Below, piece after piece: positions 3,766 to 32,259 of a stretch of DNA of 64,000 nt. Source of the DNA: Pachyseris speciosa (Eukaryota; Cnidaria; Anthozoa; Scleractinia; Pachyseridae). Positions within the stretch are counted from its first letter, which is position 1. The number at the start of each line of letters is the position of its first letter. The position numbers and the translations under genes are program-made. The notes beneath the pieces were generated by a model. The model had not been told where the DNA came from and made no database searches. It saw only the letters and a program-made list of their open reading frames with translations. The stretch lies in NCBI GenBank assembly GCA_016490735.1, contig JAEMWC010000282.1, positions 445,001 to 509,000 of the forward strand, given 5' to 3'.

Positions 3766-3770
3766 ATATC

Positions 3771-5382: not shown

Positions 5383-5388
5383 GAAAAG
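5383..5388. repeat. Target-site duplication GAAAAG, left copy
   Basis: It immediately precedes the left TIR and matches 28038-28043 immediately after the right TIR. Confidence 0.8.
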
Positions 5389-5687
5389 TATGGCGGTAAA
5401 TCTCCGCCAAAAATCGAATTTTATTTTCAACATCCAAGTTTTCATTTTAAACGTTATGTTTATGATTTAGATATGAACTTTTAAAAACAAAACTCTTTCT
5501 TTGCAATCAACATCATACCATATTGCTATCAATACAACTTCAAAGATACTAAACAAGATTCAAGATTGAAGTTTTCTCTTCAAAAATCAACTATTCGTTT
5601 CAACAATCCAGTCTTCGTTTCAACATTCAAGCCTTTGTTTGAACATTCAAGTTTCTGAGAACGATCAAGCCTTCCCCTGAACATTAC
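5389..5687 (+). repeat. Left terminal inverted repeat of the 22.6-kb element
   Basis: The reverse complement of this stretch matches 27739-28037 without length change. Its inner half contains imperfect tandem copies of an approximately 18-bp motif of the form TTCGTTTCAACAWTC at 5596-5660. Such subterminal repeats often serve as transposase binding sites. Confidence 0.85.
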
Positions 5688-5694
5688 ATTATTT

Positions 5695-5777
5695 GGATCA
5701 CTCACCGTTTCTGGGAAAATCGTGTCAAGTTTTATCGAGTGCTAAAACTTTGGTTTCCCAGAAACGGTGAGTGATCC
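5695..5777. repeat. Perfect-arm palindrome next to the left TIR
   Basis: Arms GGATCACTCACCGTTTCTGG and its reverse complement enclose a loop of about 35 bases containing TTTTATCGAGTG. A diverged second copy with the same layout is at 19705-19793. It is inside the element just beyond the TIR, so it may be a structural or protein-binding site of the element. Confidence 0.75.
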
Positions 5778-6450
5778 AGTGGATTGTATTGTTTCTGCAT
5801 TGTACTGTGCTTTGTGATGTCACCCATGAAAGCTCGTTAACTTGGTATATGGTGCACCAGCCTGAAAATCATTGCTACGTAATTTAAGCTTAATGTTGTA
5901 GTCAAACAACTTGAAGCGGTAACAAATGATTTTTTTATTTTTTCAATGAATCCTTACGTAATGTAAATGCCAAGATAAGCTCTACTTCGAGCCACTTTTA
6001 CATTCTTAAAAGGATATGACTTAAAAGAGCACTGCCACCTAATAATTTTTTCCTCATATTCATTATAAATCAAAAATTCATTTTGTCTTGTTTGTGGATA
6101 GTACCAGTTATAATAGCATCAAGTTCACAAAAGCAACCTTGGACAGAAATACGGCAAATACAACGGATTAAAAACACATGTAAAAACTAACCTGGAAAAG
6201 ACTAGTGCATTATTTTGCTGTCATCTTTGCATCAATTTCAAGCTCTAATACTAGCCGCTGATTCAACTAATTAATAAATGGAACTGACATTGACTTGCTA
6301 ATATACATTGCTTACGGTATTTATAAAATAGTTTAACAAAAAGAGCTTGAGAATGATGCTAGGATAACATCAAGAAATCTCAGTATTTATGGAAATGTTC
6401 TATATATTAGGTATTTTCCTATTTGATTCTCATGAAACAGATGGCATAAC

Positions 6451-6590
6451 TCAGCCCTTGTTCACTTTACAGAGTGGAGTTGTTTTATCTGTTATTTCAC
6501 TCCTTCTTTTTTTTAATCTTCTCTCACTCCTTGTTCTTTTGTCTTTCCTCCTTTTCCGCTTGTTTTGTTCCTCGATGTCATTTTCATTCT
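6451..6590 (-). CDS. Candidate last exon, Lys/Arg-rich tail of the mucin-like gene
   Basis: On the minus strand an acceptor (TTCTTCAAAAACAG) opens a frame reading NENDIEEQNKRKRRKDKR and more basic residues, ending in TGA at 6453-6451. Its start phase (needing one base from upstream) matches the phase-1 end of the exon at 7862-6927. No family is recognised. The basic composition could also be chance in A-rich sequence. Confidence 0.25.
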
Positions 6591-6926
6591 CTGTTTTTGA
6601 AGAAAAGAAAGGAGAAGGTTTGACATTACAGGCATTCTTCTTGTTATAACAAATAATCAGGTCTCTCTGTATACAACATCATGTAAATGGAGACATTCTA
6701 TTGCAAAAAAAAAAAAAAACAAGTTGGCTATCTTTCTGACATATATAATCTGGATTCCAATTGTCATTTGCCTTTTTGAACTAATCAATATTGCTTTTCT
6801 GTGTAGCACTTTTATTTAGTGGTGTTTAATATTTGCGGATTTTGTGAATGGTCCGCAATCCGCAAAATACAGCTATAACTCCCATAAAAATTTCATGCTA
6901 CACTGTAGTTTTTTCCCTTTACTTAC

Positions 6927-7862
6927 TTTCACTTATAGAGACAGTGCTAGTAGTACCGGTTGTTGCAGTTCTGACTGGTGCTGAATAAGTTGAGGATGAT
7001 GTAGTTGGTGTTGAGGTTGAGTTGGATGGCTGTGAGGCTGAGATGTAAGTTGGTGAGGCTGTCATTGGTGGGTTTGAGGCTAGGGTTGAAGGTGGGACTG
7101 CGGTTGATGCCGTTGAGGTTGTGGTTGTGTGTTCTGGGGCTGAGGTGGATGCTCTTGAGGCTGTAGTTGACTGGTCAGGGGCTGAGGTGGATGTTCTTGA
7201 GGCCGTAGTTGATAGTATGGGGATTGAAGTGGATGGTTCTGAAGATGTGGTGGATGTTGAGGCTCTGGTTGTTGGTCCTGAGGCTGTAGTTGATGTTGTT
7301 GAGGTTGTAGTTGATGGTTTTGAGGCTATAGGTGATGGTATTGAGGCTTTAGTTGATGGTTTTGAGGCTTTAGTTGATGGTTTTGAGGCTGTAGTTGATG
7401 TTTCTGGGACTGAGGTGAATGTTGACGCTGTGGTTGATGTTCTTGAGGCTGTAGTTGATGGTTTTGAGGCTGTAGTTGATGGTTTTGAGGCTGTAGTTGA
7501 CGGTTTTGAGGCTGTAGTTGATGGTTTTGAGGCTGTAGTTGATGTTCTTGAGGCTGTAATTGATGGTTTTGAGGCTGCAGTTGATAGTTTTGAGGCTGTA
7601 GTTGATGTTCTTGAGGCTGTAATTGATGGTTTTGAGGCTGTAGTTAATGGTTTTGAGGCTGTAGTTGATGGTTTTGAGGCTGTAGTTGATAGTTTTGGGA
7701 CTGAGGTGGATGGTCTTGAGGATGTAGTTGATGGTTCTGGGACTGAGGTGGATGGTCTTAGGGCTGTGGCTGATGGTTTCAAGGCGGTAGGTGATGGGTG
7801 TGAGGCTGGGGTTAATGTTGAGGTCCATGATGTTGAGGGTGATGATTGGTTATGACTGTCAT
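6927..7862 (-). CDS. Ser/Thr-rich mucin-like exon with 7-residue repeats
   Basis: On the minus strand a 936-base exon is bounded by an acceptor (TTTTTGCTACTTAG) and a textbook donor (GTAAGT at 6926). It encodes about 310 residues of near-pure Ser/Thr/Ala/Pro/Lys built on units such as TTASKPS (21-bp period at DNA level, tightest at 7440-7690). The composition is that of a heavily O-glycosylated extracellular stalk. Its phases are 1-1, the symmetrical phase usual for animal extracellular modules that shuffle. It has no hydrophobic segment of its own. Candidate neighbouring exons lie at 8506-8391 and 6590-6451. Opposite-strand open frames here are shadows of the repeat. It lies inside the 22.6-kb element. 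A coding role is likely but unproven, since tandem repeats also keep frames open by chance. Confidence 0.5.
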
Positions 7863-7939
7863 CTAAGTAGCAAAAAGCAAAATAATGGTTATGATGTTCT
7901 TTGTTAACAATTTATTTACTATGCTACTTGCTTGAAAAC

Positions 7940-8165
7940 AGGCAAGAGGACAACTGAAAAGAAATCAGACTCCCAGGCAGGAATTGAACTTACAACCTCC
8001 TTAACGCCAGTGTTATTCAGCTTGATTATCCAAATATTAATGATAGTAATGGTGTGAAGTGTCCGTGAGAAAGAAGATATGCCAGAGCATCCAACCAGTG
8101 TTATGGGGGGCATAGCTTTGATTCCTGCCTGGGACTCTGATTTCTTTCCTGTTGTCCTTTTGCCC
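7940..8165. repeat. Inverted-repeat element with tRNA-like box B
   Basis: Arms of about 47 bases face each other: 7940-7988 (GGCAAGAGGACAACTGAAAA onward) and 8118-8165. They enclose about 130 bases. The left arm contains GAATTGAACTTACAACC, whose reverse complement resembles a tRNA box B. It is probably a small non-autonomous element, intronic to the minus-strand mucin-like gene. Confidence 0.55.
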
Positions 8166-8390
8166 ATTGCCAAGCAACTAGCAAATCACCGTTTTCAAAA
8201 GGCACATCACACCATTACCATAATTTAATAATTTCTTGTTTACACCACAATATAGTCAGAACATTGTGCATTTTCTTGCAATTTTATAGAATTTCTTTAT
8301 TGCACTCAAATTTTGTATACAGTAAGTAGAGGAAGTAAGTCTCTTTTGTTTCAATGACTAGATCAAGTGATATCTTGGCTGGAAATTTAC

Positions 8391-8506
8391 CTTGGTCGTG
8401 TAGAGATCCGTGTAAAGATCTTCTTTAAATTCTAGCCCAATTTGATAGCATGGTTGTTCCTTGTTAGTTTGAAATATTTTTTTTAACCCAAAGTCATATG
8501 AAGGGG
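8391..8506 (-). CDS. Candidate exon upstream of the mucin-like exon
   Basis: The minus-strand acceptor ATTTCCCTAG is followed by PSYDFGLKKIFQTNK, then EQPCYQIGLEFKEDLYTDL and YTTK, with donor GTAAAT. The phase at its start joins correctly to the candidate exon at 8706-8652, but its end phase does not match the mucin exon directly, so an exon is missing or the model is wrong. No domain is recognised with confidence; position before a mucin stalk would fit a SEA-like or other extracellular segment, which is only a guess. Confidence 0.25.
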
Positions 8507-8651
8507 CTAGGGAAATTGTAAACTTTTGCAGTTGATGCACAATAAAGTTGGTAACATTTCCATATTGGCCACTTTTTTGCGCAAGTTAGAGAAAAGTCAT
8601 TTATGAACACTTCATAAAAATATTTAGACATCATTAGGACCTTATGTTTAC

Positions 8652-8706
8652 CTTGAAGTGTTTCCGAAAAATCGTCAGTTCCTCTAAAATTTCCTTGAAA
8701 CATAAT
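8652..8706 (-). CDS. Candidate small exon of the minus-strand gene
   Basis: The minus-strand acceptor TTTCTGTTTTGCAG and donor GTAAAC bound 55 bases encoding IMFQGNFRGTDDFSETLQ and ending in phase 1, which fits the start of 8506-8391. It is short and unrecognised. Confidence 0.25.
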
Positions 8707-9706
8707 CTGCAAAACAGAAAGGAAAAAGAAGGGAGGTATCCTGCCCATAGGGTTCACCTGGGTAGCATACCTCCCTAACTCTCACAAAAAGGAGATATGC
8801 AGACAGCCTCTATCTTATGTCACATTTAGTAACCCTTTATGGAACCATATAAACAGGATTTTATCACAGAATGGATAAATTTCAGTAACTGCCACTGTTT
8901 AATAATAGGTTTAGTTATACACTTGGTCTATTTTAAAATACCGGTATTGACATGAAAGGTAAGTTTTTGGAATTATGTAGCTTAACTTTTGATTGATTAC
9001 AACTAAAATGTCATTTAATTAATACAACTGGGGGAGACAAATCTTTAAACTTTATTTACTTTTATCTAGTTATTGATTAACTTATTATTTGTCAGATTGT
9101 CTGGAGATCCATTGGATAAATTTGGCATGTACAAAAATATTATTAATGGTAAAATACACCTTTAAGCTCCTTAAATGTTATACAATGAAGGTTTTCCCTC
9201 TTTTCTGTAAATTGTATTAAAAAAACATGTATTCATTACATTTGTTTAAAGGCAGTCAGAGCTGCTCAGTGTCACTTGTCAGTCAGTCTCTCCCCACCTT
9301 AGAGTTCGTCGTAATTTAGTGACTCATGATTAGGGTATGTTGCTAGCAAGTCTGTTTACTTATCTAGGTTATATTCCCAAGAGCCTGGAGGCAAAGATCC
9401 TCGCTAACTTAGAGCTTGGACACAAAGGACCTGGCTCGATTAGGAACACTGTCTGCTAAGGTTACATTCCCAAGAGCTTGGAGGACACGCGAAAGACACG
9501 CGCGCGCGAAGTTGCGAGGAGAAGCGAGTGTATCTTTCGCGCGCCCCACAATCCATCGCCGGAATTAGACTCGCAGTCTACCTCCCACCTCCCCTCCCCC
9601 ATTGTCCACTCACCCCGGGTAACGATGACTCTGCTAAAAAAAAAAAACTGACAAGGGAACGCAAGGGACCGCGAGCGGAATCTTCATTTGCTAATATTTT
9701 TAAAAC
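8707..9706. other. Non-coding stretch inside the 22.6-kb element
   Basis: No gene was seen. A short direct repeat (GGTTAYATTCCCAAGAGC) occurs at about 9367 and 9460. It is followed by a CpG-dense patch at 9486-9560 with repeated CGCGAAAGACACGCG-like words, which could be a repeat end or an old promoter. Confidence 0.4.
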
Positions 9707-9717
9707 GCGTGTCACCA

Positions 9718-11719
9718 ATTTTTTTTTTTCAAATAAACAAGCTTTTTATTAAGACATCGCTTACAATACTAACAATACTGGCTAATTAAACAAAAAATTA
9801 CTATCAATACTAACGTTACTAACAAGACTAACGCATTACTACAATACTAGATTTACAGACAAGACTATATATCTTTTTTGGTTTGATTTTTGAGCTCCCA
9901 CAAGGATTTCTTGTCACTGAATTATTAACATTATTTGCCTTATGTTATAAAAACAATAAATAATTATAAGGTAGCTCGCTATACATTACAATTACTTACG
10001 CTACGTATATTACTAGAAAAACTGTGGGGGAAGTGCCGCCAGCTCAGAGCATAGGATCATAAAACGAAACTGAAAAAAAAAAAAGAAAAAGGATGCCGTG
10101 GAGACCTGAGTATCAAGTTGTAGGTTGGGTAGAAAGAGATTCCATTTCTTTGCTGCAGTTTTACCTCTCTTTTCTATTTCATAGCATTGCCCTTTTTTGA
10201 TTGGCATACCCAGATAAAATACTTTGCAGTTAGGCATAGGAAGTTAATTTGGAGTTTGTAATTCGAGCTATCTGGCCTCAGACCCAAGGCTGTCTCTATA
10301 GTTACTTGGTTACTTTTGGATATATCAGCCCAAAAAGATTTTGTTTTTACACATTCCCAGAAAAGGTGTATTAAGGTTTCTCTTTCGTTATGACAAAAAG
10401 TGCATTTGTCATTGTCTTTTATTCCTATTTTTTGCAAAAAACTATTAGTTGCTAAACGACGATGTAGAAATTTGAAATTAAAATAAATAAGCTTAGAGTT
10501 CTTGGTGCACTTAAAGGGTGTTTGGTAAACCATTTTCCAATTAAAAGCATCGTTTGAGCCAGACGTTACATCCTTCTTTCATTTTTCCTGGCATGATATT
10601 GGCTGCTCGCTTTTATTGGAAACAAGCTTGAGGTAAGCGAGTTGGGAAGGATTTTGGGTTATTAGTAATTTCAGCAGGAAACTTTCATGTTTAGTCTGGG
10701 TCCTTGTGTTTGATCGACGTAGACGGTTCACTGCAGAAATCACTCCAAAGAAGGATAGTGGTCGCACCTGAAACCGATATGTATTTTGAAATGCTGTTAG
10801 AGAAAGAAAGCTGCCGGCGTGATCCAATAGCTGTTTAACTTGTGTTATTCCGTTAGAGATCCAGTCGTTATATAGTACAGGCTTATTCTCTATTCTTATT
10901 ATCGAGTTTTGCCACAAAGGTGAAGACAAAAAAAGTTCGTCGGATGTTATTGTTCCCTCAAAACAAACCTCTGATCAGATTTCAAAAATTTCTTTTGTAA
11001 ATGGGTCTGAGATTTTTAAGTCTTTGATATCCTTTAGATTAAGGTTCCCTTTTGGCAGTGCGTTACCTCCAAATTTTTCTAATTGCAAATCAAATAAAAT
11101 TTTCCACTTACCGTTGTTTTCTGGGTCAAGACATTTTTTAACCCAGACAACCTTAAGAGCTTTATTAAAAGATGAAATATCCAGCATTTTCAGACCGCCA
11201 TTAGCATAGTCGTTAATCATTATTTTCCGTTTAACTTTATCTCCTTTATCGTTCCATAAAAAGGAATAAAACATTGAGTTTATCTCTTTAATCGCCTCAT
11301 GGTTAGTTTGCGAGGGGGAGAGTATATAGACAAGTTGAGACGCGACAAGGCTTTTTAAGACTACAATTTTTCCTAATAAAGTGAGCCTACGAAACTTCCA
11401 GCATTCCAGGATGGAAGTTATTTTTTTAAGCTTATCACTGTAATTCAAAGAGATCATTATATTTGGGTCCGTTGAGAACCACACGCCTAGTGCTTTAACT
11501 TTTTTCCTTGACCATTTGAAATCTTTTTCTGGGTAGAGCTTATGTTCACAATCCATTTTAGATCCAATCCATAAAACTTCTGTCTTCTTATTGTTGAGCC
11601 TGAGGCCAGATAAATTCCCAAAAGCTTCTATAAGGAGTATAGATTCAACAAAGGATTCTTTTGAACCATCCAAGATAAGTGTTGTGTCATCTGCAAACTG
11701 GCTTAATTTAAACTCTATT
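9718..11719 (-). mobile_element. L1/Tx1-like LINE, 5'-truncated, with target duplication
   Basis: On the minus strand the copy opens with the RT FADDTTLI motif (about 11700) and continues through thumb sequence (LGVWFSTDPN; LTLLGKIVVLKSLVASQLVY). It then shows a zf-RVT-like Cys/His stretch (DKCTFCHNERETLIHLFWEC) at about 10340-10400. The 3' end is a poly(A) tract, seen as T10 at 9721-9730 on the plus strand. GCGTGTCACCA is duplicated on both sides (9707-9717 and 11720-11730), the mark of target-primed insertion. ORF2 is broken by stops into three main pieces (11673-10975, 10929-10579, 10533-10174). Endonuclease and the first RT motifs are missing by 5' truncation. It is an inactive copy inserted within the 22.6-kb element. 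Confidence 0.85.
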
Positions 11720-11853
11720 GCGTGTCACCATTTGGTTTTGAGTAATATATGTGGAGAAAGTGGCGCGAATATTGTTGACCAATCACAGGGCTAAGTAAAG
11801 GAAAGAGGCCAAAGTAAGGGCAGCTACGATCTTCGACAATTTCAATGAAAAAT

Positions 11854-11946
11854 TAAGACCACCCCTCCCGTTTCAGTGATGAAAAAAGTGGCGCGTTTTT
11901 TTTTTCGCGCGACTTAATCATTGAATCGGGGAAAGGGGTGGTCTTA
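11854..11946. repeat. Imperfect inverted repeat upstream of the TRAF-like gene
   Basis: TAAGACCACCCCTCCCGTTT near the left end is mirrored by GGGGAAAGGGGTGGTCTTA at the right, with CGCGC tracts in the centre. It sits about 260 bases upstream of the ATG of the TRAF-like gene, within or before its 5' UTR. It is either a short TIR element or a promoter palindrome. Confidence 0.6.
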
Positions 11947-13364
11947 CTTTTCATTTTATTCCGTCCATGATTGAAGTCTCCTTCAAAGCCGGCCAGGGAA
12001 GCGTTGCGTGACTTCGGCGCGGGAGGCTGCCAATGAGACAATCCTCAGTTGTCAAAAATAGTAACAATAGGGCCAGTTAATATTACAAAGGCAGCGCCAA
12101 CGTGTCACATTCTCGATCACTGTAGTTTTGTTCAAAGCGACCCTCTTTCGATCGTCTTCGCTTCTTTACCGACTGATCTGCTTTAAGATTATTCTACTGC
12201 TGATAATGTCCGAAACAAGTACTGCCTTCGGTTGTGATCTAATGGTGCCCGTGGATGAGAGATTGCAGTGCGGAATTTGGTAAGATTCACATGTCAAGAA
12301 TTGATTTGAGGGGCACCTAACGCGTCAAATCAACCAAAAGCTGTAGGAAGGCATTTTTTTAAGTACCTTATGGTGTTTAAAGTCTGCTTAAAGTGATGTT
12401 TTCATAAGCTAGAAGAAGTTCATCTTTTTTGATTACTTAGCTGAAATTTTAATTGCCCGAAAATGTTAGGGAACAAAATCTTCATTTAAGAAAATGCAAG
12501 CTGAAATAAACTTTCCACGTGCTTTTTGGGGAACTATTTTCTTTACGAAAATGCAAGCTGACGTTTTTGACTGACAAAAACAGCAGTTACGACCTTTCCG
12601 AAAATCGCTAGTGCATTCTTTAATCGACGTCGAAAGCCTAAGACGAATTACCCGCCACCGAACAGATATCTAACGAAACTTGTCATTAGGTGGCCCTGTG
12701 ATTTAGGCTGACCAATTTTTGGATTAATCGAGCTGGTTTGTGATATGTGTATGTCCTCTTTCGCAGCTTTTACACGATATTGAAGCCAGTTAGCCTGAGT
12801 TGCGGACATTCGGGGTGCAAAAGCTGCATCGAAATGCTCTTTCAGGGAGATACACCGGGCGCCGCACCAAAATGTGCACTGTGCAGGACGACACTAATAG
12901 ACAAATCCGATGCTCTAGGAATCAACGTCACGCTGGATCATCTAACGCGAGATTTACCTGTCCAGTGTACGAGTAGTGGTTGCACCTGGAGAGGAATTTA
13001 TTCTGACGCCAGCTCCCACCACCATGTGTGTGTGAAATTGGAGTTGGAGTGCGGAAATGGCGGCTGTCAGTATAAGTGCGCACGGGAACAGATGCCACAG
13101 CATGCCGACACATGCATGAAGCAATAGATCATGTGTCCAGATTGCAAGAAATCTGTAATGCGTGACTTAATGGACCACCACCGTTCATCCCTATGCTTTC
13201 ATGCGAGGGTCCTGTGCCCTCTAGGCTGTGGGACATCATTGCCAAGGTATGCTGTTTGCATTCTTTTGGTTACTCTATATTATTATTATGGCAGTTTAAA
13301 GACTCTTGAATGCCAGTTCCTAGTAACAAATACTGGGGATGTATCATTATTATTGTTATCACTA

Positions 13365-13366
13365 TC

Positions 13367-13416
<50 letters not shown>

Positions 13417-13432
13417 TATTATTATTAGTAGT
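13365..13432. repeat. (TTA)n microsatellite in TRAF-like intron 2
   Basis: A run of TTA/TAT trinucleotides directly precedes a TIR element. A similar tract is at about 15415-15480 in the same intron. Confidence 0.9.
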
Positions 13433-13722
13433 AGTATATACCACACAAGTGAATAGTGCTTTTCGTGCTCTCTGATTGGTTAACTCAGAGGTGATTAGCC
13501 GGTACTGTTCACCTCTGAGCAGCACGCGCACAAGATTTTACAATTTCCGTCCAATTGTCGATATATTGTCCCCCATTAAGTAATGCCCTGATTATCCAGC
13601 TTGTGTGGTATACACTAAAACAATTATTCATCAGTGTCAGTGAAAGTGGTGGATATTTACCTCACCGCTTCGCGGCTTGGTAAATATCCACCACTCTTCA
13701 CCTCCATTTCAGTGAATAATTG
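13433..13722. mobile_element. Composite palindromic MITE, copy A
   Basis: 13433-13616 has TIRs AGTATATACCACACAAGT and AGCTTGTGTGGTATACACT. It is joined to a hairpin at 13620-13722 with arms AAGTGGTGGATATTTACC and its complement. The same two parts occur in the opposite order and orientation at 18164-18660. It is non-autonomous, with no coding sequence. Confidence 0.75.
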
Positions 13723-13791
13723 TTAATTTTTATTGTACACTGATATTATTATTATTTTAATTATTATTATTAATGAAGTTTTTAGCAAGAC

Positions 13792-15167
13792 TTTTACAGC
13801 GGTGATTGTATTGCCGTGAACACCTAAAATATGTCTGGAATGTTAATTGTATTGTAACCAATCACAGGCGAGATCTTCAAACCACAGAAACCACAGGCAA
13901 CGGTTTCCTATCTGTCACGGAGCAAATTATTTTCGTTTTGTTTTAACATTCAGTCTCTTTACAAGTAAACAATTGCTTTTCCTTCCTATTTGTTTACAGT
14001 GTGTGCTATAATAGCGAAGAATACAGGTTTGAAGGATTTTGAAATAAATTACAAAGCCGAAGTGCCGGGCCGACGCACGCGACGGTTTGGCGTGGGAATT
14101 TTCAAACTTTTTGTAACGATCGAAATCGGTAGTTACGCCTGATCGCAAGTTACAATGTTGCAAGGTAAGCCGCTAGAATTTTCTGATTCTCATCGCTTCG
14201 CGGCTATTGCAGCAAGCGTTAACACTTTTTTGTTAGGTCAGGTAGATTTACTATTTTGGTATTTTTTTCTTTTTTTTTTGGTAGCAAATAATAAAGTTGA
14301 AATTCGAGAGTTGTTCTTGTCGATGTTTTCATTTCTGATAACATAATCCTCGCTAATATTTTTTTGTAAAACAAGGGGATTGGATTTACGTGCGCTAACG
14401 ATTAAACCTTCGAACTACTGTGCATGCAGAAGTTCCTTGATCGCAAGATCGCAAACTGGAAAACCACCGACCAAATTCAACATCTATGGAATGATTGACA
14501 CATCGCGCTAAGTAAACAGCCCAATTTTCGGTATTCCTTCCAAAATATAATTTTGCTTTTTCTCTGAAGGCATTTATGCATTTGATATCAGGGGGATTAC
14601 ATGCTGTAGGAAACTAGTTATGAGGGGATTTAGCCAAGAAGATTTGAAGTCCCCTTTGGATGCGATTATTAGCACATTTTGCGCGCAAAAGAAAAAAAAC
14701 ATGATTATCTCCGATCGCAGTTCTTCTTACCAAAAGAATCTCCGTAAATGTCCGTAAACTCGCATGTTACAACCCAACAGCTTTATATTGTTGAATGCAT
14801 ATCTGAAAATTTATTTTTCTAAGAATACTCGATTGTTCATTTTTTTATTGTCTCCGTGTAATATGTCGTTACATGGAAAACCGGTCGTCGTCGCGTCGCG
14901 TTGGCTTCTAAATTTTCCTTTCTAAAATCGAACGATGTGCTGAATGCGGTCCTCAGCACTGATCTTGGGGAGCAGTGGTGTTTTAAATTCCTAATAAGAC
15001 AGCTTGTATCCTTAAACATGTTAAACAAAACGAAAATAATTTGTTCCGTGACCGTTCGTTGCCTGTGGTTTCTGTGGTTTGAAGATCTCGCCTGTGATTG
15101 GTTACAACACAATCAACATTCCAGACATATTTTAGGTGTTCACGGCAATATAATCACCGCTGTAAAA
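13792..15167. mobile_element. TIR element of about 1.4 kb in TRAF-like intron 2
   Basis: Inverted arms of about 150-158 bases (13792-13949 and 15018-15167) start TTTTACAGCGGTGATT and end in its complement. The interior has no recognisable transposase, so it is likely a non-autonomous DNA transposon. No clear target duplication was found. Confidence 0.7.
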
Positions 15168-15445
15168 CATACAGATTATGATTATGAATACTCTTAGCAA
15201 CCTAGTAGATCAATGATTGTGAATTGAAGATTGTTTGATTATTATCATTATTATCGTTATCATTATTATTATTATCGTTATTATTATTGCTTTGCACAGT
15301 AGTCTTTGGAACTGGAGATCTTACATTGTTATTTCCTCTATCAAGTCAATTTCATCCTCAGGATTTGGAGAACAGACTACTTTCTGTAGAGGTGGTTGAC
15401 ATTCTGGCAACTCTATTATTATTACTATTTTTGTTGTTGTTGTTG

Positions 15446-15481
<36 letters not shown>

Positions 15482-16943
15482 GTTTGTTGTTTTGTTATCA
15501 AATCAATTCTAAGAACATCTTCTAGAATGCCAAAAATGCTATACAGCTTAACACTAAAAACAAAAGCCTATTAATAGCATACTTTTTGGTTTCAGAAGCC
15601 ATACCATTCTGCACATGAGTAACTGCAAAGAGAAAGCCATCAGATGCCATGTTCCTGGGTGCTTGAACGTCGTTAAGAGAACAAACATGAATTTTCACAT
15701 AGACGAAGCAGCATCTAGCCACTTCAATTTGCAGTCAGGGGAAATACAAAGGCTGCGTCGTCTCCTTAGTGATGGGGTAAAAATATACTTAGACTGTTTC
15801 TCTTTATGTAATGAGGTAAAAAAAGGATTTCAGCCAGATCTAATATTATTTCTCATTTCATCCAATTTTTCATTCACTTACTGACTGAACATAAAATACT
15901 GGTACCTCACATTCACAGTACTCGCAAATCAACATGAAAAATATGGTGTGTCCTGTGACAATCAACTGGTACCAGTTTAACAATAAACACAATTTCACAC
16001 CCACTAGAAAGGCTATGGAATTTACATAGCTTTCCTATAAAATAAATTCATGCTAGAATACTCACGTTATAGTTCTTTTTCAACGTTTGAATGCTTTTGC
16101 CTTTAAGTGGGAAATCCAACCATCCACCCTTCCAAATGTATGGTGACTTGCCGTCAAAAACACAGGAACATGCTTCATGTACCTAATGATCTGTTTTGGT
16201 TTTGTATTTTATAGAGTCTTAGTAACTACAACCCAGCACCCAAGGAGGAGAAAGTTGTCTCCTTCAACTGGAATGTGAGAGGTTTTATGTCCCTACATCC
16301 AGACAATTTACAGTCCCTTACAAGTAGAACAATGACCTTGGGAAGAAACAAGTGGAGGGGCTTGTACATGGCAGACAAAACACTGATGTTGCAGCTGGTC
16401 TCAGCTACTGCTCCACAGACAATTTAGATACGGTATGAAAGATCCAGAGTTATTGTTTTGCAATTCATTGGATTGACCAATGTTAAGGGATTTTTACAAA
16501 AAAAGTGTGACAATAACATCAAAAAGAATGAATAAATGCTTTATACCTTTAAACAAGTGATGTACAATATCATGTTCATGCAACAACTCAATTGAATGTT
16601 CATGCAACAACTATTGAATATGCAAATGAAAGAAATAAAATTAAGAATATTATTGTCAGATGACATAGAAAACAATCTTAATAGTTAACAGTTTAACCAT
16701 GTATCCTTTAAGATAGGAATTTTAATGGTAAATAACCATGATTGAACCATTTGTAATCAAGCATCTTTGTATTCCAGGATTGTGATGAGGCCTGGAGAAC
16801 ATGAAGAGCATACCTTCATTCTCCAGCAAGAAACGCTGAAAGAAGGAGACATGCGGGGGGTCAGCATGGCTGACATGAATAAGTGGGTAGACAGTGATGG
16901 AGAAATTAATATTAAATTTATTATTGTTCATCTGCAATTTTAG

Positions 16944-18163
16944 GCATTTAAATTACTTAGACAAAGGCTTTATCCTAAAGGCTTTATCCTATCAACCCAG
17001 GAGAGAGAGAAGAGAGTCTACCTTGAAACATACATAAAGCCCATGTTGCTGTAGTTTCATTAAGAGTGAATGAAATTTGGTTAAGATAAAAAATGAAAAT
17101 GTTAGTTCTGTCCAAAATGGTCCTGGTGCCATGTTATGCCTCGTCAGATGTCAGTTTGAAGAGCACTGCTATAAGAATTCTGATTACATTCAATATTGTG
17201 CAATAACCACTGATGAAGTAACCACCTTTTACACAAAAACTTAAATATTTGAAACAAGAGGTGACATTCCAAAAAAAGAAAATAAAAAGGTTTTGCAAAC
17301 AAGCTTCAGTTATCTGTTACCTCATAGACACTTGAGATCAAAAGACCAATTAACAAAGAAAAAAGTGAGGAGTTGTTTGCTACACTCCAAGTTTACCAAC
17401 ATTTGTCAGACATATTGGTTTATAGCAATCTATGTTTCTTAATTACTACTTACCAAAATTATAGTTCAAGGCTGAATTGCTCAAAGCATGGTTAGCATTA
17501 ACCATTGCTTATACCATTGGTTAAGATATATTACAGCCTATAGGTTGTCATGGTATTTAACCCTGGTTAGCGCTAACCATGCTTCGAGAACTTGGGCCCT
17601 GAAGAGTGGTTACCAGTAAATAATGAGGTATTAAAAAAAAGCATCAACAAAATCATGCATGCCACTCCAATTAGTTGAAACCTTGGAACAAAAATGCAAT
17701 CCAACCCAACCAGCATGAATGCCTATTACGTATAGAGCTTCTTTTTTTTTTTTTGAAAAATGTAAATTGTAAGGCCAGATGAACACTTTGCCCTTTGCAA
17801 ATAGCTCCTTTAATTCGTTTTTCATTATTGAAGGCTCAGGAATAATATGAATAATTGTCTCAATTACAAATTAATCAGTTTAATTCTGTAGCTTGTATTT
17901 ACCTTATATAACTATTCACTTTCTGGGGTCAGGAATTCGAAGAGCCTGGCTTTGGTAAAGCTCACAGGGGCTTTCCTGTCTCCATGAGTCTGAGAAAACA
18001 AAATTAAAGGCAGAGCATAGATGTGCAGGTGTTTGATGGACTGGAACCAAATTTTTCAGTAGCATAACCTGATGAAAAAAAAATTCAGTCAAGGGTCTAT
18101 GTGTACAAAGGCAGAATTACAAGTCAAATTTACTCTCTGTACAACCTGATAAATAGTTAGTAT
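16944..18163. other. Non-coding stretch after the TRAF-like gene
   Basis: No gene was seen. An inverted repeat at about 17475-17595 has arms around AAGCATGGTTAGCGCTAACC, the type of end found on small hAT- or Kolobok-like MITEs, but no target duplication was established. AT-rich spacer otherwise. Confidence 0.45.
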
Positions 18164-18660
18164 TATTCACTGAAGTGAAGGTGAATAGTGGTGGATATTT
18201 ACAGAGCCATGAAGCGGCGAGGTAACTACTGTATCCACCACTTTCACCGACACTGAGGTGAATAATTGTTTTAGTATACACCACACAAGTTAAATAATCA
18301 GCAATTGAAAATTGGTTCAATTTCACCTTGCTGTTGGAACCATGCTGCAAAACGGTAAATATTTCATTTTATTTACTTATATAGTGTTCGACAGTTCACG
18401 TACTTTTTCTATGCCTTAAATTTTTAGTTTGGAAAGATTAATAAACAACTCAACATTAAACACAGTGAAGCAAAATTTTTTTGCCAATTTTGTATTTTTC
18501 GGAACAGCCGGCTAGTTCATTGCTAAAATTTTGCTTCTCGGTAACTGAAGCGAAACGGGAAGCCATTTCGTTTTTCTCCATTTGCTAGTACTTGCTATTC
18601 ACCTCCAAGCTAGCCAATCAGAATGCGAGGAAAGCACTCTTTACTTGTGTGGTATATACT
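18164..18660. mobile_element. Composite palindromic MITE, copy B (inverted relative to copy A)
   Basis: A hairpin at 18164-18269 (arms around TAGTGGTGGATATTTAC) is followed by a TIR element at 18273-18660, with ends AGTATACACCACACAAGT and ACTTGTGTGGTATATACT. Same family as 13433-13722 but longer inside. Confidence 0.75.
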
Positions 18661-19372
18661 TATTTGAAATATCTGGTAGTTATTATGGTGAATATAACAA
18701 AGAAAAGCTAAAGAACTGGAACAAAATAGTCTGGATCTAAGTGTATTGCGACCATTTATTGGTGTTATTGATGCCTGCGCCGTTTTAAACTGACATAATT
18801 GTTCTCTTGCTTGAAAACCCTAATATTAATTAAAACCCCACTTTCAAGTACTGGTACTAGTATCTATTTCTGATTATAACAGTTAAAGATGGCCACGGTG
18901 CTGAACTGTATTTTACACCAAGAACATGTTTAAGATAAATTCCAGAAATTGTCTGTTGAAAATTAATGGCTAGCTGCTTTGATGTTAAGTGGATGTTTTG
19001 TGAAAATACAAATAACTTAATATTTAGCTTAAATATTTCGATCAATCAATAAAAATAACTTTGTTTAATTTTGACATTGTTTGTCCCCAACATGTAAAAT
19101 TTATGGGTCACAGGGGTATCTTAATTACTTTGGTTCAGCAGTGAATGCTGGCTACATGCTAGCGTCTGTCAAGTGACCATGAAGGACGGGTCAGGCTTTT
19201 TATTTTAGTTTGCACTACACAACACCTGACCAAAATCACTCCTACGAAGAAGGTGGGCTTGAATTATAACTAGGAAAACCGCACCTCAATTTTGCACGCC
19301 CCAAGCGGTTCAGTTTAGGCCTCTAAATACTTTTTAACAATCCAAAATGGCCGCTTACCACATACATCACGG
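18661..19372. other. Unrecognised AT-rich spacer
   Basis: No gene, strong repeat or RNA gene was seen. Confidence 0.4.
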
Positions 19373-20070
19373 ATCACGTGCATACCAGTGGAGAACCTCG
19401 CAAACGAGTCTGCCATCGATCACGTGCATACCAATGAAGAGCCTCGCAAACGAGTCTGCCCTAGATCGAGTGACGAAGCCGTCTAGTTCTCTTTCTTTCT
19501 TTCCTTTTTTTTTTTTTTAATTTTCAAATCGAACGTTATGAAAACGAGTGTTCCCTCGTTTTGCAGATCAAATCGAGTATTCCCTCGATACTGAAGTTAA
19601 AATCGAGCTTAGCCACGGTAGCAAATTGTTCCTCGTCTTAGATATGCTGAAAACGAGTGTTCCCTCGATAATGAAGTTTAAATTGAGGGTAGCCACGTTA
19701 ACAAATTGAGTCACTCATATATCGTGTGCACATATCGAAGGATTTTTTTATCGAGTGTATTTGGATTGCTTTCCCGGAAACGATGAGTGATTAACTGTGA
19801 CTCGATTTAAAATCGACACGATGACGCAGGCACTCGATAAACGATTTGTTGTAATGGCGATGGTTCTATCGTGGGGTCACTCGATCACACCAAAGACCGA
19901 AGACGACCCTAGATTTAGACTGAAGATTCCTTTATAAACGACCCTCGATTTAGACCGAAGACTCCTTTATAAATGACCCTCGATTTTGACCGGACTTGTT
20001 TTAAATGACCCTCGATTTTGACTGGACTTGTTTTAAATGACCCTCGATTTTGATCGAAGCCTTAGTAGCG
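19373..20070. repeat. TCGA-rich minisatellite block
   Basis: Three repeat types follow each other. Two copies of a unit of about 47 bp start ATCACGTGCATACCA (about 19373 and 19420). Diverged units around AACGAGTGTTCCCTCG occur at about 19540 and 19650. A tandem array with a period near 35 bp on GACCCTCGATTTAGACCG spans about 19905-20060. A palindrome at 19705-19793 repeats the 5695-5777 structure. Confidence 0.65.
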
Positions 20071-21925
20071 TCCCGCGATGCTTGCACGGGACACCCCTTT
20101 CGTCTCCCTCTTGACGCAAGAAGCGCGGGCTCATTGATTTGTAGGGGTCTGTGCGGGGCTGAAAAACTGTCACCTGCTTGTGAAGGTGAGTTCAGCCTGC
20201 AGAACAGGCGATATTGTTTTGCGTATTTCAGCGAATGGAGGCTCCAGCGATGCGTGCGCGGAGCAATCGGTTAAATAAGCGTCTATTATGCAGGCTGGGG
20301 TGAGTTATGTTGTTTTTCGTATGAAAATAGTAATATTATTAGTCTTTGTTTTCTCGGAAGTTTCGTTGCAAAATGGCCGCGGTTACAGTTTTTGTTGTCA
20401 TTATATCAGTGGTTAGTAGCCACTGGAAACCAGTGTGTGGAGCACATCCTGATGACTACACAAAATACGGCGTTAAGCAATTCCTTTATTAACAAACCCT
20501 ATTAAGTCACTGCAAATTCCTTGTACAATGGACGTGTACGTCAGGAGAATTGTGGCAACTACAAAACTTATTCTTTGATTGCACCTGGCGTCACGGCGGC
20601 CATGTTCTGTCATGTTGGTGGAAAGAACAATAGCGCAAAAGTTCCTTTTGGAATTTGACTCTATTAGTATGCAAACCTTGAGCTACATTTTTATATTGTT
20701 TTGGCACCAACATGGCCATCTTATCACGTGAATGCAATCAAAGAATTGGGCCATCCCATAAATTTTATACACAGACCCATAAAATAGAAGGCCCAATTCT
20801 AGCAGGCCTTCTTATGTACCAATTTAAATTCCAACACTGTTAAAGTGATTCCAACAACACCATGTACCCATGAAGGCATAACAATTTTGGACATGAATTA
20901 CTCTTACTTTAGCAAATACACCGAATTCAATCTCTATTTATTAAATAATGCTCTAAATTCCAGATCCTGTCAGATTAGTTTTAGCGATAATAAATTAATA
21001 ATTGCCTTCCATAAGTTGTTGGAGGGTTATGCAATAAAAATTGAATGCCACATTGAAACAAAACAAACCGATCAATTACCCTACCTCCAGAGGCCCGTTG
21101 AAGGGAAATATAAATTTCCCTGAAAAGCCGAAATCGTTTTCTTCCCGGTACTTTGCGCCTCAGTGCCGCGGCTTCGCTGTGTAATTTCATTCCTTCAAGT
21201 GGAGAAATAACCTCTGGCACCCAGGGTAACCAATCAATATACTGATACTTTTCAACCCCTTTAGTTCTTTTACTGTCAATCACAAATTACTGATGGAAAA
21301 ACTTGAACACTAAGGAGTATTGCTCCACAATAATATTATTGTTAATAATTATCTGAATAACACTAGCCAGACTGAAATTTATTTCTATTATACATGTAAA
21401 CAAACCCATCAATATATAAGACAATTTTTCTTTACCTCTTGAGAAAACTAGAACACCACAATTTAAGAAGTATTGCATTACAGTTGTTTAAGATGATCTA
21501 AATAAAAAGATTAACGTGATTGAAAAATACTTGTAATATATTAATAAACCAATTATATATACCAATTGTCACTGCTATTCACAAAATACTTAATAAATGG
21601 AAAAGCAGAACACGATGAGGTAAGAAGTATGGCTTTACAATAATTAAAAGCAATACTTCTTAATGTGTTATCACTGCTTGAAAATGATCTGAATAATTTA
21701 CGTCAGATTGAAAATTTTGTTTAATAATAATTATCAGGAGGCAAACGTTTTCCTGAGGTAGTGACATAGAAACTGCTAACAACTTTGAAAGATAAAGTTC
21801 AAATTAACTCTTAAATCTGTACACCTTGTCAGAGGCAGAGACTTGCTCCTCAAGCCTTTGAAATCAATCATTGATGTGGTTGGGTCGAATTATTTCATTC
21901 AAGCAAGTTACTTAGCTTCATTTCT
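20071..21925. other. Non-coding stretch with no recognised gene
   Basis: Short open frames (for example 20050-20274 and 20845-21123) show no domain. AT-rich; nothing else is supported. Confidence 0.35.
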
Positions 21926-22256
21926 TCATGGTTTCCACTCATTAGGATAGAAAAAATTCCTTGTGATTTGATTCTGTATGAGGTGCCATTTGCCCAACAG
22001 TATTGTCTTTAAGCTGGGCAAAGCCGGGTGATATTGCGTTACAAAGGGTAGTATTGTCTTACGTGCATTATTGTTCCTTTGTTCTAGTGACGCTTTTCTG
22101 TCAGTGAATTTGACTTCAGAGAGGTGTTTCGCTACAACGTTAGCTGAGTATCCTCTATTTTGAAGGCGTCTCTCGAAGTTTTTCACGTTTTCCTCAAAGG
22201 TCAATTGTGAGGAATTTGTCCTCAGAAGCCTTAACGCTTCTCCCTTGAAAAAGGCT
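21926..22256 (-). mobile_element. Penelope-like element fragment (RT C-terminal region)
   Basis: The minus strand encodes FFKGEALRLLRTNSSQ, then FEENVKNFERRLQNRGYS and LPSLKTILLGKWHLIQNQ. This is the conserved segment between the reverse transcriptase and the GIY-YIG endonuclease of Penelope-like elements. It stops after NQ. The homologous segment in opposite orientation is at 24260-24720. Confidence 0.7.
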
Positions 22257-24259
22257 TATTTAATTTTTTTACTGCTGGTTTTACTCACACAGGTCCAGCC
22301 CGAATCTTATTGAAGAGATCATATAACACAATGCCATTTGCACTAACCTGCGCGCCGGAGTTCATTTGTGCTACTCTTGCTATGTTTTGCGAAAGGTACG
22401 GTTTGAAACAACCATCGATCAAACGTAATTGGAAAAATTTACCCCAGCTTTACATTAACTTTACTTTCAGTATAGTAAAGTGCAACTTTACGCAAACTTT
22501 GTATGGCGTGTAAAGGAAAGTAAATCTGGCTCATCAACTTTCAACAGCCTTTACGCAAGCTGTACGTGCGATAGATGTAAATCTACCTTTACTACAAGTC
22601 TTTACGAAGTGGCGTAAACTTGTTTCACCAACTTTACGCAAATTTACGGCAACTTTAATTTTCCGTAAACCTCTTTATGGGTACTCCCATAAATTTCGGA
22701 TAGGTGTGTGCCGCAAAGGGTCTGAAACCCTGACCCTTTTTAAGAATGAAGCAAACAATTATTGATACCCTATTCAAGGACGAGACCCGAAAAAGCCGGA
22801 AAGAATTAGCGTCAAACTAAAGGCGGATTCAGCAGGCTAATAAATGAGCGATCCAAACAACGGCTTATAAATACTCAATCTGTTTCTTAAATGTAGTCTG
22901 CTGATATCCTGTTAGATTTTTTATTATTAAGTAATATTAATAAATGTATTTTTTCTGTTATGTAATATATGTATCATTTACATAGCCTGTTGCACTTTTA
23001 CCTTCTTGGTTCTTTAAATATCTATGTACATGTTCAAGCAAATTAATTGTCCGTGGCAGTGACCAACTCGAAAGCCTTAAAGCTACTTTGGTCACTGCGC
23101 ACATTTGCTTTTTATCACTTGTGTAATTTAGTTGCTGGCCTATCTCTCTACCCATGTAATGTTCTTTAATGTAGAAATGTTTGTAAATAGTGCAAAAAAC
23201 AATAAACTGAACTGAAACTGAAGCTTACCGCCGCGGAAAAAAAATCATTTCTTTTTTCGTTTAGCTGGGTATGTTGTAGCTGATACAATAAGGCACCCTA
23301 TGTAAGGATCACACGGGAACTCTGTGCCAAAATGTGCAAAAATGATACCCTATTTAACGATCGAGAACCTCAAAAACCATACCCTATCCCGCGGCGCAAT
23401 ACACGAATTTCACCCACCAGGCCTCACAAAAGGCGTTATCAAATTCCTCACAATTAAGGGAGGGGGGTGGGGCTAACTTAACTACAAAATTAGCGGGGCG
23501 ACCTGCACCATTTGCAACACCTCACAAGATTGGTTCAAAACAACAATAAACAAAGAATTAAAAAAATGGAACCTAGCCATAAAACAATAGAGGTGCAACT
23601 GATAAAGATCCAGTGAAATTAGAGGTTTCAAAGAGGTGCAGCCCTACCCAAATTAGCTAACATTGTTGCTATGGAAAGTTTCCAACCCTCATATCTTGGA
23701 AACCCTAACTTGCACAGATAAGCTTCCCGGCTATGTTTTTGCAATCAAAACGTTTTACAAGATTTTCGAGCCACAACCATATTTGGTAAGTCACGTGACC
23801 AGAACAGAAAAAGTCCTAAAACTCGATTGGCGTACACTTCTGTATATCGAAAATGGTGCCAATGGTTAAAGTGCAAAATACTACGTATCGATTTTTGGAA
23901 ATTCGCGTTTGTGTGAGATTTATGACGTCATAGGCATGCAAATTCATACCCTTTTCTTATTATCATTGCAGTTATGTACGTTAACTACAATTGCTTACGT
24001 AAAGAAGGCTGGAATATCTCCCATTGGCAAAAAAATTCGGAACTTCACATAGTTTTCTCCAAGTTTTAGGGATTATTCTCTCTAAAGCGCGGTTGGGGCC
24101 TGGGGCAAGTTACGCATGCGCAATAGCAATTTATAAATTTTACAAGTTCACCTCTTCACTCGTCTCACCAATATAGTGGCAAAAACACCGAAAAACCGTG
24201 TTTTACAAATACATTTCGTAAAAATCTCTTGGCAACAACGTTAAGTCTGTAGTTAAGTT
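22257..24259. other. Repeat-derived non-coding stretch
   Basis: 22430-22680 is dense in TTTACG/CTTTAC words in both orientations. 22690-22800 and 23280-23400 share the ATACCCTATT type of word with spacing that suggests decayed copies of one dispersed repeat. No gene was seen. Confidence 0.4.
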
Positions 24260-24720
24260 AGTCCCCCCTTTAACCTTTGAGGAAAACATGAAAAACGTCG
24301 AGAGACGCCTTCAAGCTAAAGGGTACCCATAGAGAAACACCTCTCTGAAGTCAAATTGACTGATAGAAAAGCATCACTAGAACAAAGGAACAAGGATGTA
24401 CGTAAGACAATACTACCCTTTACAACGCGGTATCACCCGGCTTTGCCCAGCTTAAAGACAATACTGTTCGGGAAATCGCACCTCATACAGCATCAACCAC
24501 AACTAAGAGAAACCTTTACAGAGCCTCCACTCCTATCATATCGCAAATAAAAATCCCTTAAAGACATTCTGGTTAGAGATAAGCTATAAACGCAAAACAC
24601 AATCCATCAGCGAACCGCAGGAGTTGCGTAGGCCCGTCGACACTTCTCACACTTATATTTACAAGATTCGCTTGACACAGTCTAGCGATGGATCTAACAT
24701 GTTGTCTAAAGCAGAAATAG
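24260..24720 (+). mobile_element. Penelope-like element fragment, decayed
   Basis: It shows FEENMKNVERRLQAKGYP, LPSLKTILFGKSHLIQHQ and PPLLSYRK in shifting frames with several stops. It is the same RT-to-GIY-YIG linker region as 21926-22256 but inverted, reaching slightly further towards the endonuclease. Confidence 0.65.
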
Positions 24721-24794
24721 ATTCAAGCTGTGGAGAAAAAAAAAACATTTCTGGTCTCCCCGCGCGAGGCGGCCTCGATCTTCGATATGAAGAT

Positions 24795-27566
24795 CGAGTA
24801 TTTCAGTAATCATAATAATAATATATATCTCATGGGAGATTTTAATATAGACTTGCTAAAATATGAAAACTGTAAATACAGCCAGACACTGTTTCAGTGT
24901 ATACAAAGTTTTTCTATGCTTCCTACAATTGATAAACCAACACGAGTGTATGGGTCCTCAGCGACTTTAATTGACAATATCTTCACAAATAACCTGACAA
25001 ATAATATTTCTAGCGGCAATATCGTTACCGACACAACCGATCATATTTCGCAAGTCTGTATTGTCAATTTAAACAAGCAAAAATTACCACATACAAAAAA
25101 GACTAAATTTTGGGATTATTCCAGCTTTAATGCTAATGAATTCATGAATGATTTAAGTGCAATAAATTGGGAAGAGGTTTCTGGTAATTGCGACGTAAAT
25201 AAGTCGTTCTCTCACTTTTATAAAACCATAAATCATGTAGTTAATAAACATGCACCGCTCAGGGATGTTTCAGTGAGAAAACTAAAAATGATAACTAAAC
25301 CTTGGCTAACTGCTGGACTAAGGAAATCTATAAAGGTGAAGAATAAATTGTTCTTTGAATCAAACTGGCCGAAATATAAAATGTATAGAAATAAGTTAAC
25401 AACCCTTAGTCGATTGAGCAAACAATGTCACTATCAAAGGTTTTTTGACTCTAACATAAAAAATACACGATCGACATGGAACGGTATTAACGAAATATTA
25501 GGAGATATGAAGAAAAGGAAGAAATCAAAAAGAATTAACTTCATTCGTTCTAACGAGCATAGCGTTTTGTCAGATGATCCTAAAACGATTGGTAACACAC
25601 TCAACAAATACTTCTCGTCAATAGGGCAGAAACTTGCAACCGATATTCCTGAAGTTTACACTAATTTTTCTGATTATCTCGATCCACCTTTGCGGAACAG
25701 TTTTTTTTTTATCCAATCGTACCGCAAGAAATTGAAACAGAAATTACCTTGTTGCCATACAATAAAGCCCTGGGGCTTTATTCTACCCCTGTTAAACTGT
25801 TAAAACTTGCTAAATCAGTCATATCCATACCGTTAACCAAAATTTTTAACCAGTCTGTACTAACCGGGGTTTACCCTGCAAAACGTAAATATACAAAAGT
25901 AATTCCAGTGCATAAGGGTGAAGACGAGACGTTACCTGAAAACTATCGTCCAATTTCTTTGTTATCAATCTATAATCGTTTATTTGAGAAAATTTTATAT
26001 CGTAGGCTGATAAAGTTTATAGACAAGAATGATATTCTTTATGATTTACAATATGGCTTTCGCAATAAACATAGTACCCAGCACGCGATTCTTGATATTG
26101 TGAACTCCATACATTCTAATATGGACAATAGAAAGTACTCTTGTGGAATATTTTAGATCTTAAGAAAGCTTTTGATACCGTTAACCATGAGATTCTTTTG
26201 ACTAAACTTGAACACTATGGAATAAGAGGAGTTATAAATTCTTGGTTTAGATCATATCTTTCGGATCGCCGACAGTCGATTGAAATAGAGAAATGCATAT
26301 CTGAAAATGAAACGATCGTATGTGGAGTGCCTCAAGGCTCTGTACTTGGACCCTTGTTATTTTTGTTATATATTAATGACATCCATAAATCTTCCAAGGA
26401 ATTTACTTTTCATCTATTCGCAGATGATACAAGTCTAACTTATGCAAATGACAACTTACGTACTCTTGAACTAACTGTCAATAATGAACTTGAGAAAATA
26501 AGTGCATGGCTTAATGCTAACAAACTAACGCTCAACGTCAAAAAGTCTAATTATGTAATTTTTCGTCCGCGCCAAAAAAAAATACTTTTCATTCCTCAAA
26601 TTAAGATTTTTAATCCAACTTTAAATACTCGAGTAACTCTAGAGATGAAGGACTTTGTTAAATATTTGGGCATAATGATTGATTCTGAACTATCATGGAA
26701 GCATCATATTGACTTTATCTGTCACAAAATTAGTAGATCGGTTGGAATATTTGCTAAAATGAGGCATTTCATTCCACGGCATCTTCTTTTAAATTTATAT
26801 CATACACTTATTTCTCCTTATTTAAATTATGGTATCTGTGCATGGGGCAACTGTCCACAGACCTACCTCAATACGATACTTGTTCTGCAAAAACGTGCTG
26901 TAAGATTGATCTATTTTTCTAAACCCAGAGACCATGCAATCCCTTTTTTTATTGAAGCAAACTGCCTTCCTTTGCAGTCCTTGTTTTTCCAACAGTTAAG
27001 CTATTTAATGTATGACGTTCATGCTAAGAGAGCTCCTAAAAGTCTTCTCGATAAGTTTGCGAAAATCAATACAAAACATCATTATAATACGCGATTATCT
27101 ACAAAGGAATGTTTCTCTGTTAAATTCTCTAGAACCTAAGAAATGAAAAAAAAAATCTTTTACTAGAATTGGTGTGTCTATTTGGAAATCTATTCCACTT
27201 TCTGTTAAGACTCTTAAAGTTTTTAATTTTCGTAAAAAAATTAAATCACTACTCCTTAATGTTCTAGGTAATGAAGATAATTATTTGAATGTTAATTATT
27301 TAATAGAATATTTTGTGAAGTTAACCTGATATGTTGTATATACTTCCAGTCGTAATTTTAGTCTTTTTCAAATAACAAAATCCCTTGTACTTGAATTTAT
27401 ATGTAAGGTGTTTTCTTTCTGTATGCCTTTGTAATTCTCTTTTGTTTTTGTAATTTAATAACGCCTAAATTAAAGTCTTGTCCTGCCTAGATTAGCATTA
27501 TAGCTATTTGCAGGACATGAAGTATTGTAAACTTTATATTTCTTTAAATAAATACATTGTTTTTGT
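24795..27566 (+). mobile_element. CR1/jockey-superfamily LINE, 5'-truncated
   Basis: It starts inside the apurinic-like endonuclease (LMGDFNIDLLK; LIDNIFTNN; TDH) and runs through a full RT ([48 protein letters not shown]) to the C-terminal tail (TRIGVSIWKSIPLSVKTLK), ending near 27310 with stop TGA. A 3' UTR follows with a terminal ATAAATA. Only three frame breaks interrupt it, near 25702 (T9), 26152 (TTTT) and 27146 (A10), all at homopolymers, so they may be sequence errors in a fairly young copy. The CR1-like clade is inferred from motif style. The 5' boundary near 24795 is approximate, and no target duplication was found. Confidence 0.8.
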
Positions 27567-27738
27567 TGAAGAAAACAATGCATGCTTGGTAGGCTACCAG
27601 CGCGCATGTGTCACCTTGAGTATCCGAGATAGTCAAGCGTGAAGTTCAAACCAAAACTTTGAATTCAATACTTGTGCGTCATTTCGGGCGCATCTTCGAG
27701 AAGGTTGAAAGTAAAGACTTGACGTTGAAGCGAAAAAA

Positions 27739-28037
27739 GTAATGTTGAGGGGAAGGCTTGATCGTTCTCAGAAACTCGAATATTCAAACGAAGGCTTGAA
27801 TGTTGAAACGAAGACTAGATTGTTGAAGCGAATAGTTGATTTTTGAAGAGAAAACTTCAATCTTGAATCTTGTTTAGTATCTTTGAACTTGTATTGATGG
27901 GAATATGGTACGATGTTGAATGCAAAGAAAACGTTTTGTTTTTAAAAGTTCATATCTAAATGGTAAACATAACCTTTAAAATGAAAACTTGGATGTTGAA
28001 AATAAAACTTGATTTTTGGCGTAGATTTAACGCCATA
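27739..28037 (-). repeat. Right terminal inverted repeat of the 22.6-kb element
   Basis: Reverse complement of 5389-5687, equal in length. It ends CGCCATA next to GAAAAG. Confidence 0.85.
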
Positions 28038-28043
28038 GAAAAG
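28038..28043. repeat. Target-site duplication GAAAAG, right copy
   Basis: It directly follows the right TIR. The BEL gag frame continues from here in register with 5383-5388. Confidence 0.8.
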
Positions 28044-32254: not shown

Positions 32255-32259
32255 ATATC

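Follow-up and report, generated by a model that had tools for sequence, protein, structure and literature searches.

We analyzed a 64,000-nucleotide stretch of the Pachyseris speciosa genome (contig JAEMWC010000282.1, positions 445,001 to 509,000 of the forward strand; the window), in which a long terminal repeat (LTR) retrotransposon is interrupted by a 22.6-kb unit bounded by terminal inverted repeats (TIRs). The arrangement is defined by the following features, with the strand given where one is assigned:

3766-3770 (+), left target duplication ATATC of the host LTR retrotransposon, 5 bp
3771-4117 (+), 5' LTR of the host (BEL-like) retrotransposon; right edge approximate
5383-5388 (+), left target duplication GAAAAG of the unit, 6 bp (flank comparison)
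5389-5694 (+), outer part of the left TIR, positions 1-306, IS3EU-like element (inverted-repeat alignment, family comparison)
27567-28037 (-), outer part of the right TIR (inverted-repeat alignment, family comparison)
28038-28043 (+), right target duplication GAAAAG of the unit, 6 bp (flank comparison)
31907-32254 (+), 3' LTR of the host retrotransposon
32255-32259 (+), right target duplication ATATC of the host retrotransposon, 5 bp

The host LTRs, each of ~350 bp (3771-~4117 and 31907-~32254), agree at 312/342 positions, and the host element is flanked by the 5-bp duplication ATATC at 3766-3770 and 32255-32259, a combination that suits its assignment to BEL. Judged from the LTRs, the duplication length and our own reading of gag/protease/reverse transcriptase (RT)-like frames, the host looks BEL-like; a Pfam search of its pieces returned no family that identifies the element. 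The initial annotation had described a gag frame that resumes in register behind the duplicate. The retrotransposon reading frames on either side of the insertion site indeed share the same register, but the left frame in the window carries a stop codon three codons ahead of the site.

The inverted ends of the unit (5389-5694 / 27733-28037) are identical at 284/306 positions (E = 2e-127), far above chance, and at 92% over 312 bp in an ungapped comparison. GAAAAG lies directly outside both ends in the same orientation (5383-5388 and 28038-28043), and the unit terminates in TATGGCG..CGCCATA, i.e. in ends of the TA..TA type. The 299-bp ends of ~93% identity and the GAAAAG duplicate reported in the initial annotation are therefore real, yet these ends represent the outer portion only of an inverted repeat of ~1 kb. 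In the window, the left arm of this repeat retains positions 1-306 (5389-5694) and ~762 onward (21961-22204), and the right arm is interrupted by a long interspersed nuclear element (LINE), leaving 27567-28037 plus 24270-24793.

When the genome (984 Mb, 2,368 contigs) was searched with the left 299 bp as query, at least 41 TIR matches were obtained, 40 of them spanning 295-299 bp at 92-100% identity and the remaining one 88 bp long; since scoring covered 40 of 84 candidates, all copy numbers are lower bounds. Among the copies compared, inverted TIR pairs occupied 12 independent insertion sites, with the C932/C360 copies (common flanks), two C15 copies and the copies at the window site each counted as one site. 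A 6-bp target duplication, defined as an identical 6-mer on both sides at an offset of at most 4 bp, was present at 10/12 independent sites versus 1/132 mismatched left/right flank pairs. Most family ends read TATGGCG..CGCCATA, and typical copies are 2.9-4.3 kb long, with ~1-kb inverted repeats (98.7% identity over 998 bp in L009; 89.6-96.4% over 938-1,044 bp in L010, L012, L014-L017 and L023) that are internally repetitive, with ~20-bp subrepeats. Outside this size range fall an 8.3-kb copy that contains a LINE and three shortened copies of 1.1-1.6 kb; the 4.3-kb copy L013 has an unreadable interior. In L014-L017, L034 and L038 (in L037 one side is readable), a hAT-like miniature inverted-repeat transposable element (MITE) sits at an identical place in the centre, and it is likewise central in L024, L026 and L033; an element that was nested once has thus spread with the family. 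The search thus recovered what the initial annotation had named as marks of a mobile family, namely recurrent inverted pairs, 6-bp duplications and a shared core; this family was therefore mobile.

Dissection of the unit against the 3,860-bp family copy L023 resolved four aligned pieces, 5389-5694, 21961-23494, 23650-24793 and 27567-28037. The family-derived share amounts to 3,455 bp and the nested share to 19,194 bp, distributed inside the outer TIR parts as follows:

5694-5778, palindromic stretch of 85 bp at the inner edge of the left TIR
5695-21960, nested block of 16.3 kb in place of left-TIR positions ~307-761 (family comparison)
10174-11724 (-), nested LINE fragment (RVT_1, zf-RVT) in the block (Pfam)
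12304-12700 (+), nested hAT-like MITE in the block; edges approximate
12744-13475 (+), RING + zf-TRAF gene fragment, broken by a stop codon (Pfam)
13796-15163, Tc1/mariner-like insertion, 1.37 kb, with TA duplication and ~150-bp TIRs
15558-15884 (+), second zf-TRAF-like fragment; weak, under the Pfam cut-off
21961-23494, family core: inner left TIR and centre (alignment)
23495-23649, nested MITE, 155 bp, with the 8-bp duplication AAATTAGC at 23487-23494 / 23650-23657
23650-24793, family core: centre and inner right TIR (24270-24793) (alignment)
24794-27566 (+), nested LINE (RVT_1; weak endonuclease trace), with TGAAGA at 24788-24793 / 27567-27572

The 16.3-kb block substitutes for ~455 bp of the left TIR; at its borders, neither termini or a duplication of its own nor inverted or direct repeats were found. 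The 85-bp palindrome on the left border is probably an insertion remnant; a related palindromic end is found at the same TIR position in the diverged copy at C472:328k. In the 13 paired copies at other sites, no match to the block of more than 100 bp was seen except the MITE (the interior of L013 being unreadable), and a comparison of window positions 1-40,000 with the 12 loci that are single-ended or partial gave no block match above 150 bp except the MITE (8/12 of these loci are partly unreadable). We call the MITE at 12304-12700 hAT-like on account of ends of the CAGGGGCACC type together with duplications of 7-8 bp; both this label and that of the insertion at 13796-15163 are presumptive. 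The segment 12304-12700 was also considered as a family core and rejected: in L022 it sits inside the TIR with its own duplication and is thus a separate MITE.

Some further properties of the block may be mentioned. The stretches of the RING/TRAF fragments (12744-13475 and 15558-15884) that gave matches are 64-78% identical to six public predicted proteins, and the interior of the RING/TRAF fragment holds one stop codon. A 21-bp minisatellite lies at 7113-7808 within the block; over 6990-7855 it comprises ~33 units with long open frames on both strands. An Rfam scan of the window returned nothing at gathering score.

Besides the window, two other large copies were found, C282:792896-818448 (25,553 bp) and C472:574675-597032 (22,358 bp). 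Each is bordered by GAAAAG and by the retrotransposon flanks of the window copy; segments of these flanks match the window at 95.8-98.4% identity. Homology does not stop at the 3' LTR: it reaches window ~33.8 kb in C282:792896-818448 and, at C472:569k, window ~33.3 kb, which is the limit of the sequence compared. Common flanks and homology beyond the 3' LTR identify these copies as segmental duplications rather than independent insertions, although C472:574675-597032 is possibly an alternative haplotype instead. Retrotransposition of the host together with its cargo was rejected as their source, as the homology continues past the 3' LTR and, in the diverged C472 copy, past the 5' LTR (to window 2767). 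The large copies differ in their insertions. The Tc1-like insertion is unique to the window copy, its site being empty in both other large copies, and the sites of the 155-bp MITE and of the LINE are both empty in the sister copy C282:792896-818448; the LINE 24794-27566 is present in the window and in C472:574675-597032. At the position of window 12690, C282:792896-818448 alone carries an insertion of 5.5 kb that has TG..CA termini and a duplicated GTGGC, and a ~1.1-kb insert near 5781 is shared by both other large copies but not the window. The empty sites in the sister copy imply that three nested insertions postdate insertion of the element. At a fourth, diverged place (C472:319-333k, mostly 90-96% identity), the element has the right-hand flank on either side, an inverted arrangement such as recombination between long TIRs would produce. 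At this place, in L028 (C472:318800-328780), positions 2900-9904, a third, partial TIR stands beside the left flank; this arrangement is apparently an inverted rearrangement made through the TIRs.

A second swollen case is provided by L009 (2,878 bp) and L012 (8,264 bp), which lie on different contigs and have both 14-bp flanks in common; the difference between them is an insertion with a LINE. This LINE (L012 positions 2267-6040) has an uninterrupted 1,258-amino-acid frame with endonuclease, RT and zf-RVT domains and looks recently active.

Taken together, the unit is very probably a non-autonomous IS3EU-type element of ~3.9 kb that sits in an LTR retrotransposon, was swollen by nesting and was multiplied by duplication. 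The starting point was an element with ~1-kb TIRs, internal ~20-bp repeats and TATGGCG..CGCCATA ends, whose TIRs were presumably bound by a transposase supplied from elsewhere in the genome. Insertion into the gag region of the retrotransposon with a 6-bp stagger left GAAAAG on both sides. A LINE, a MITE, a Tc1-like element and the 16.3-kb block then came to lie inside; the block, which itself contains transposon pieces and the RING/TRAF fragment, took the place of the ~455 bp of left TIR that unswollen copies retain. Segmental duplication brought the retrotransposon and its contents to two or more other places (one possibly the other haplotype), and the duplicated copies afterwards gained different insertions. 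It was nesting, and not transposition, that brought the unit to 22.6 kb. This is the third of the options considered in the initial annotation, a small foldback element swollen by nesting and gene capture, and the family comparison bears it out. The proposal that 22.6 kb inserted as one piece finds no support in it: the three large copies found occupy one common, duplicated site, and paired copies elsewhere do not show the interior.

Transposition of ~20 kb in a single step, by a giant non-autonomous element of Polinton/Maverick or other affinity whose cargo included the TRAF fragment, would fit the size of 22.6 kb, the 6-bp duplication, the existence of three copies of 22-26 kb in the genome and the RING/TRAF gene pieces inside the unit, and some single-ended copies have no defined full size. 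We nevertheless regard this explanation as very unlikely, given that the three large copies found share one insertion site with common flanks, that the interior was not seen in the 13 paired copies at other sites, that three nested insertions have empty sites in the sister copy and that no Polinton gene occurs among the scanned open reading frames (ORFs). Still harder to sustain is the idea that misassembly produced the joins. Such long repeats can cause assembly errors, but the same retrotransposon/TIR junctions recur in three copies on two contigs with differing later insertions, and the LINE and the MITE are each flanked by duplications; we would give it hardly any credence.

More room is left for a variant in the arrival of the block, which may have come in when the transposon repaired a gap and an aberrant template switch placed ~16 kb from elsewhere where left-TIR positions ~307-761 had been. 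Replacement of ~455 bp of TIR, block edges devoid of inverted or direct repeats and the presence of non-transposon gene sequence are in line with such an event. The LINE fragment, the MITE and the tandem repeats in the block look instead as if derived from stepwise nesting, and the 85-bp palindrome at the left edge, with its relative in the C472:328k copy, resembles an insertion remnant. We thus consider gap repair improbable, though a serious minority option. There is a slim chance that a block acquired by repair turned the unit into a giant cargo-bearing IS3EU-type element that, in principle, could be moved as a ~20-kb piece via its intact outer ends.

Several observations weigh against our preferred reading of a small element swollen by nesting. 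Two of the 12 sites lack the duplication as defined, L009/L012 agreeing in 4/6 letters and L010 repeating GTGCAG only beyond the permitted offset; the edges of four copies (L010, L011, L016 and L029) were placed by hand. For L026, L027 and L034, three of the four readable copies among the single-ended or partial ones, no partner TIR was present in the ~9.4 kb compared, which leaves their full size undefined; an independent large copy elsewhere is unlikely, yet would count against this reading. Nested insertions are not distributed in a cleanly tree-like manner across the three large copies, a pattern that may reflect gene conversion or loss. The 16.3-kb block, whose arrival route is inferred, showed neither ends nor a duplication of its own. 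Finally, no autonomous partner or transposase with these TIRs was seen: eight long ORFs at six loci contained no integrase domain, in a sample in which 8/12 single-ended or partial copies are partly unreadable. An IS3EU-type autonomous partner would be expected to be bounded by TATGGCGTTAAATCT.

Instructive as it is, the unit thus belongs to the ordinary repeat DNA of animals and is no new giant mobile element. With its long TIRs and a perfect duplication around 22 kb, it mimics a giant terminal-repeat element even though the interior is mostly later or foreign, and units of this sort would inflate any count of giant elements that builds on TIR pairs and duplications alone. Copies of a single site that differ in which nested insertions they carry also offer a small relative clock for the inserted families.

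Elsewhere in the window, polycystin-domain and PKD-channel reading frames lie at 209-2076, and 1161-3556 has a 96% identical counterpart at C472:193-196k (L037). At 42183-43159, a 323-bp unit that contains inverted matches is present in three tandem copies. Further downstream, a ~764-bp direct repeat of 95% identity (44699-45434 / 50768-51530) encloses minus-strand ORFs and probably represents the LTRs of another retrotransposon.

It remains to place the family among known systems. Polinton/Maverick elements have termini of the AG..CT type, unlike the TATGGCG..CGCCATA ends observed here. They share the 6-bp target duplication (PMC10045372), but so does IS3EU, and GAAAAG is thus not discriminating. 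The size of 15-25 kb that the initial annotation gave as typical of Polintons is reached here through nesting. Genes for polB, integrase, ATPase, protease or capsid were absent from the unit's scanned ORFs in Pfam searches; these covered 8 + 5 ORFs plus 44/60 of those of at least 62 amino acids in 5695-21960, with short frames of the core pieces left out. Polinton/Maverick was rejected on these grounds, that is, no Polinton gene among the scanned ORFs and TA..TA ends, in agreement with the initial annotation, which had recognized neither Polinton genes nor AG termini.

The ends and the duplication length would instead assign the family to the non-autonomous cut-and-paste DNA transposons of the IS3EU type. 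With this match to a known kind of element, no new TIR superfamily is needed; among the matches listed in the literature, no title describing this TIR family was found. Published IS3EU elements combine 6-bp target duplications with TA..TA ends (PMC10045372), and fungal TET-bearing IS3EU families have TAYGG..CCRTA ends and TIRs of more than 30 bp (PMC12730594). Our family resembles these IS3EU/GingerRoot elements (DDD/E DNA transposons) in its 6-bp duplications at 10/12 sites, in TATGG..CCATA ends that fit TAYGG..CCRTA and in TIRs longer than 30 bp; it differs in that its TIRs, at ~1 kb, are far above the quoted minimum and in that no transposase was found.

In the latter respects the family recalls Galileo/Newton, Foldback-like elements of Drosophila that belong to the P superfamily and have long, internally repetitive TIRs of up to 1.2 kb and non-coding copies (PMC2775673). 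The same source reports insertions nested inside Galileo copies, rearrangements via copies, and 7-bp duplications. The ~1-kb TIRs with 20-bp subrepeats and the lack of a transposase ORF among those scanned are features in common, whereas the duplication measures 6 bp here and 7 bp in Galileo. In form, Galileo is the closest counterpart.

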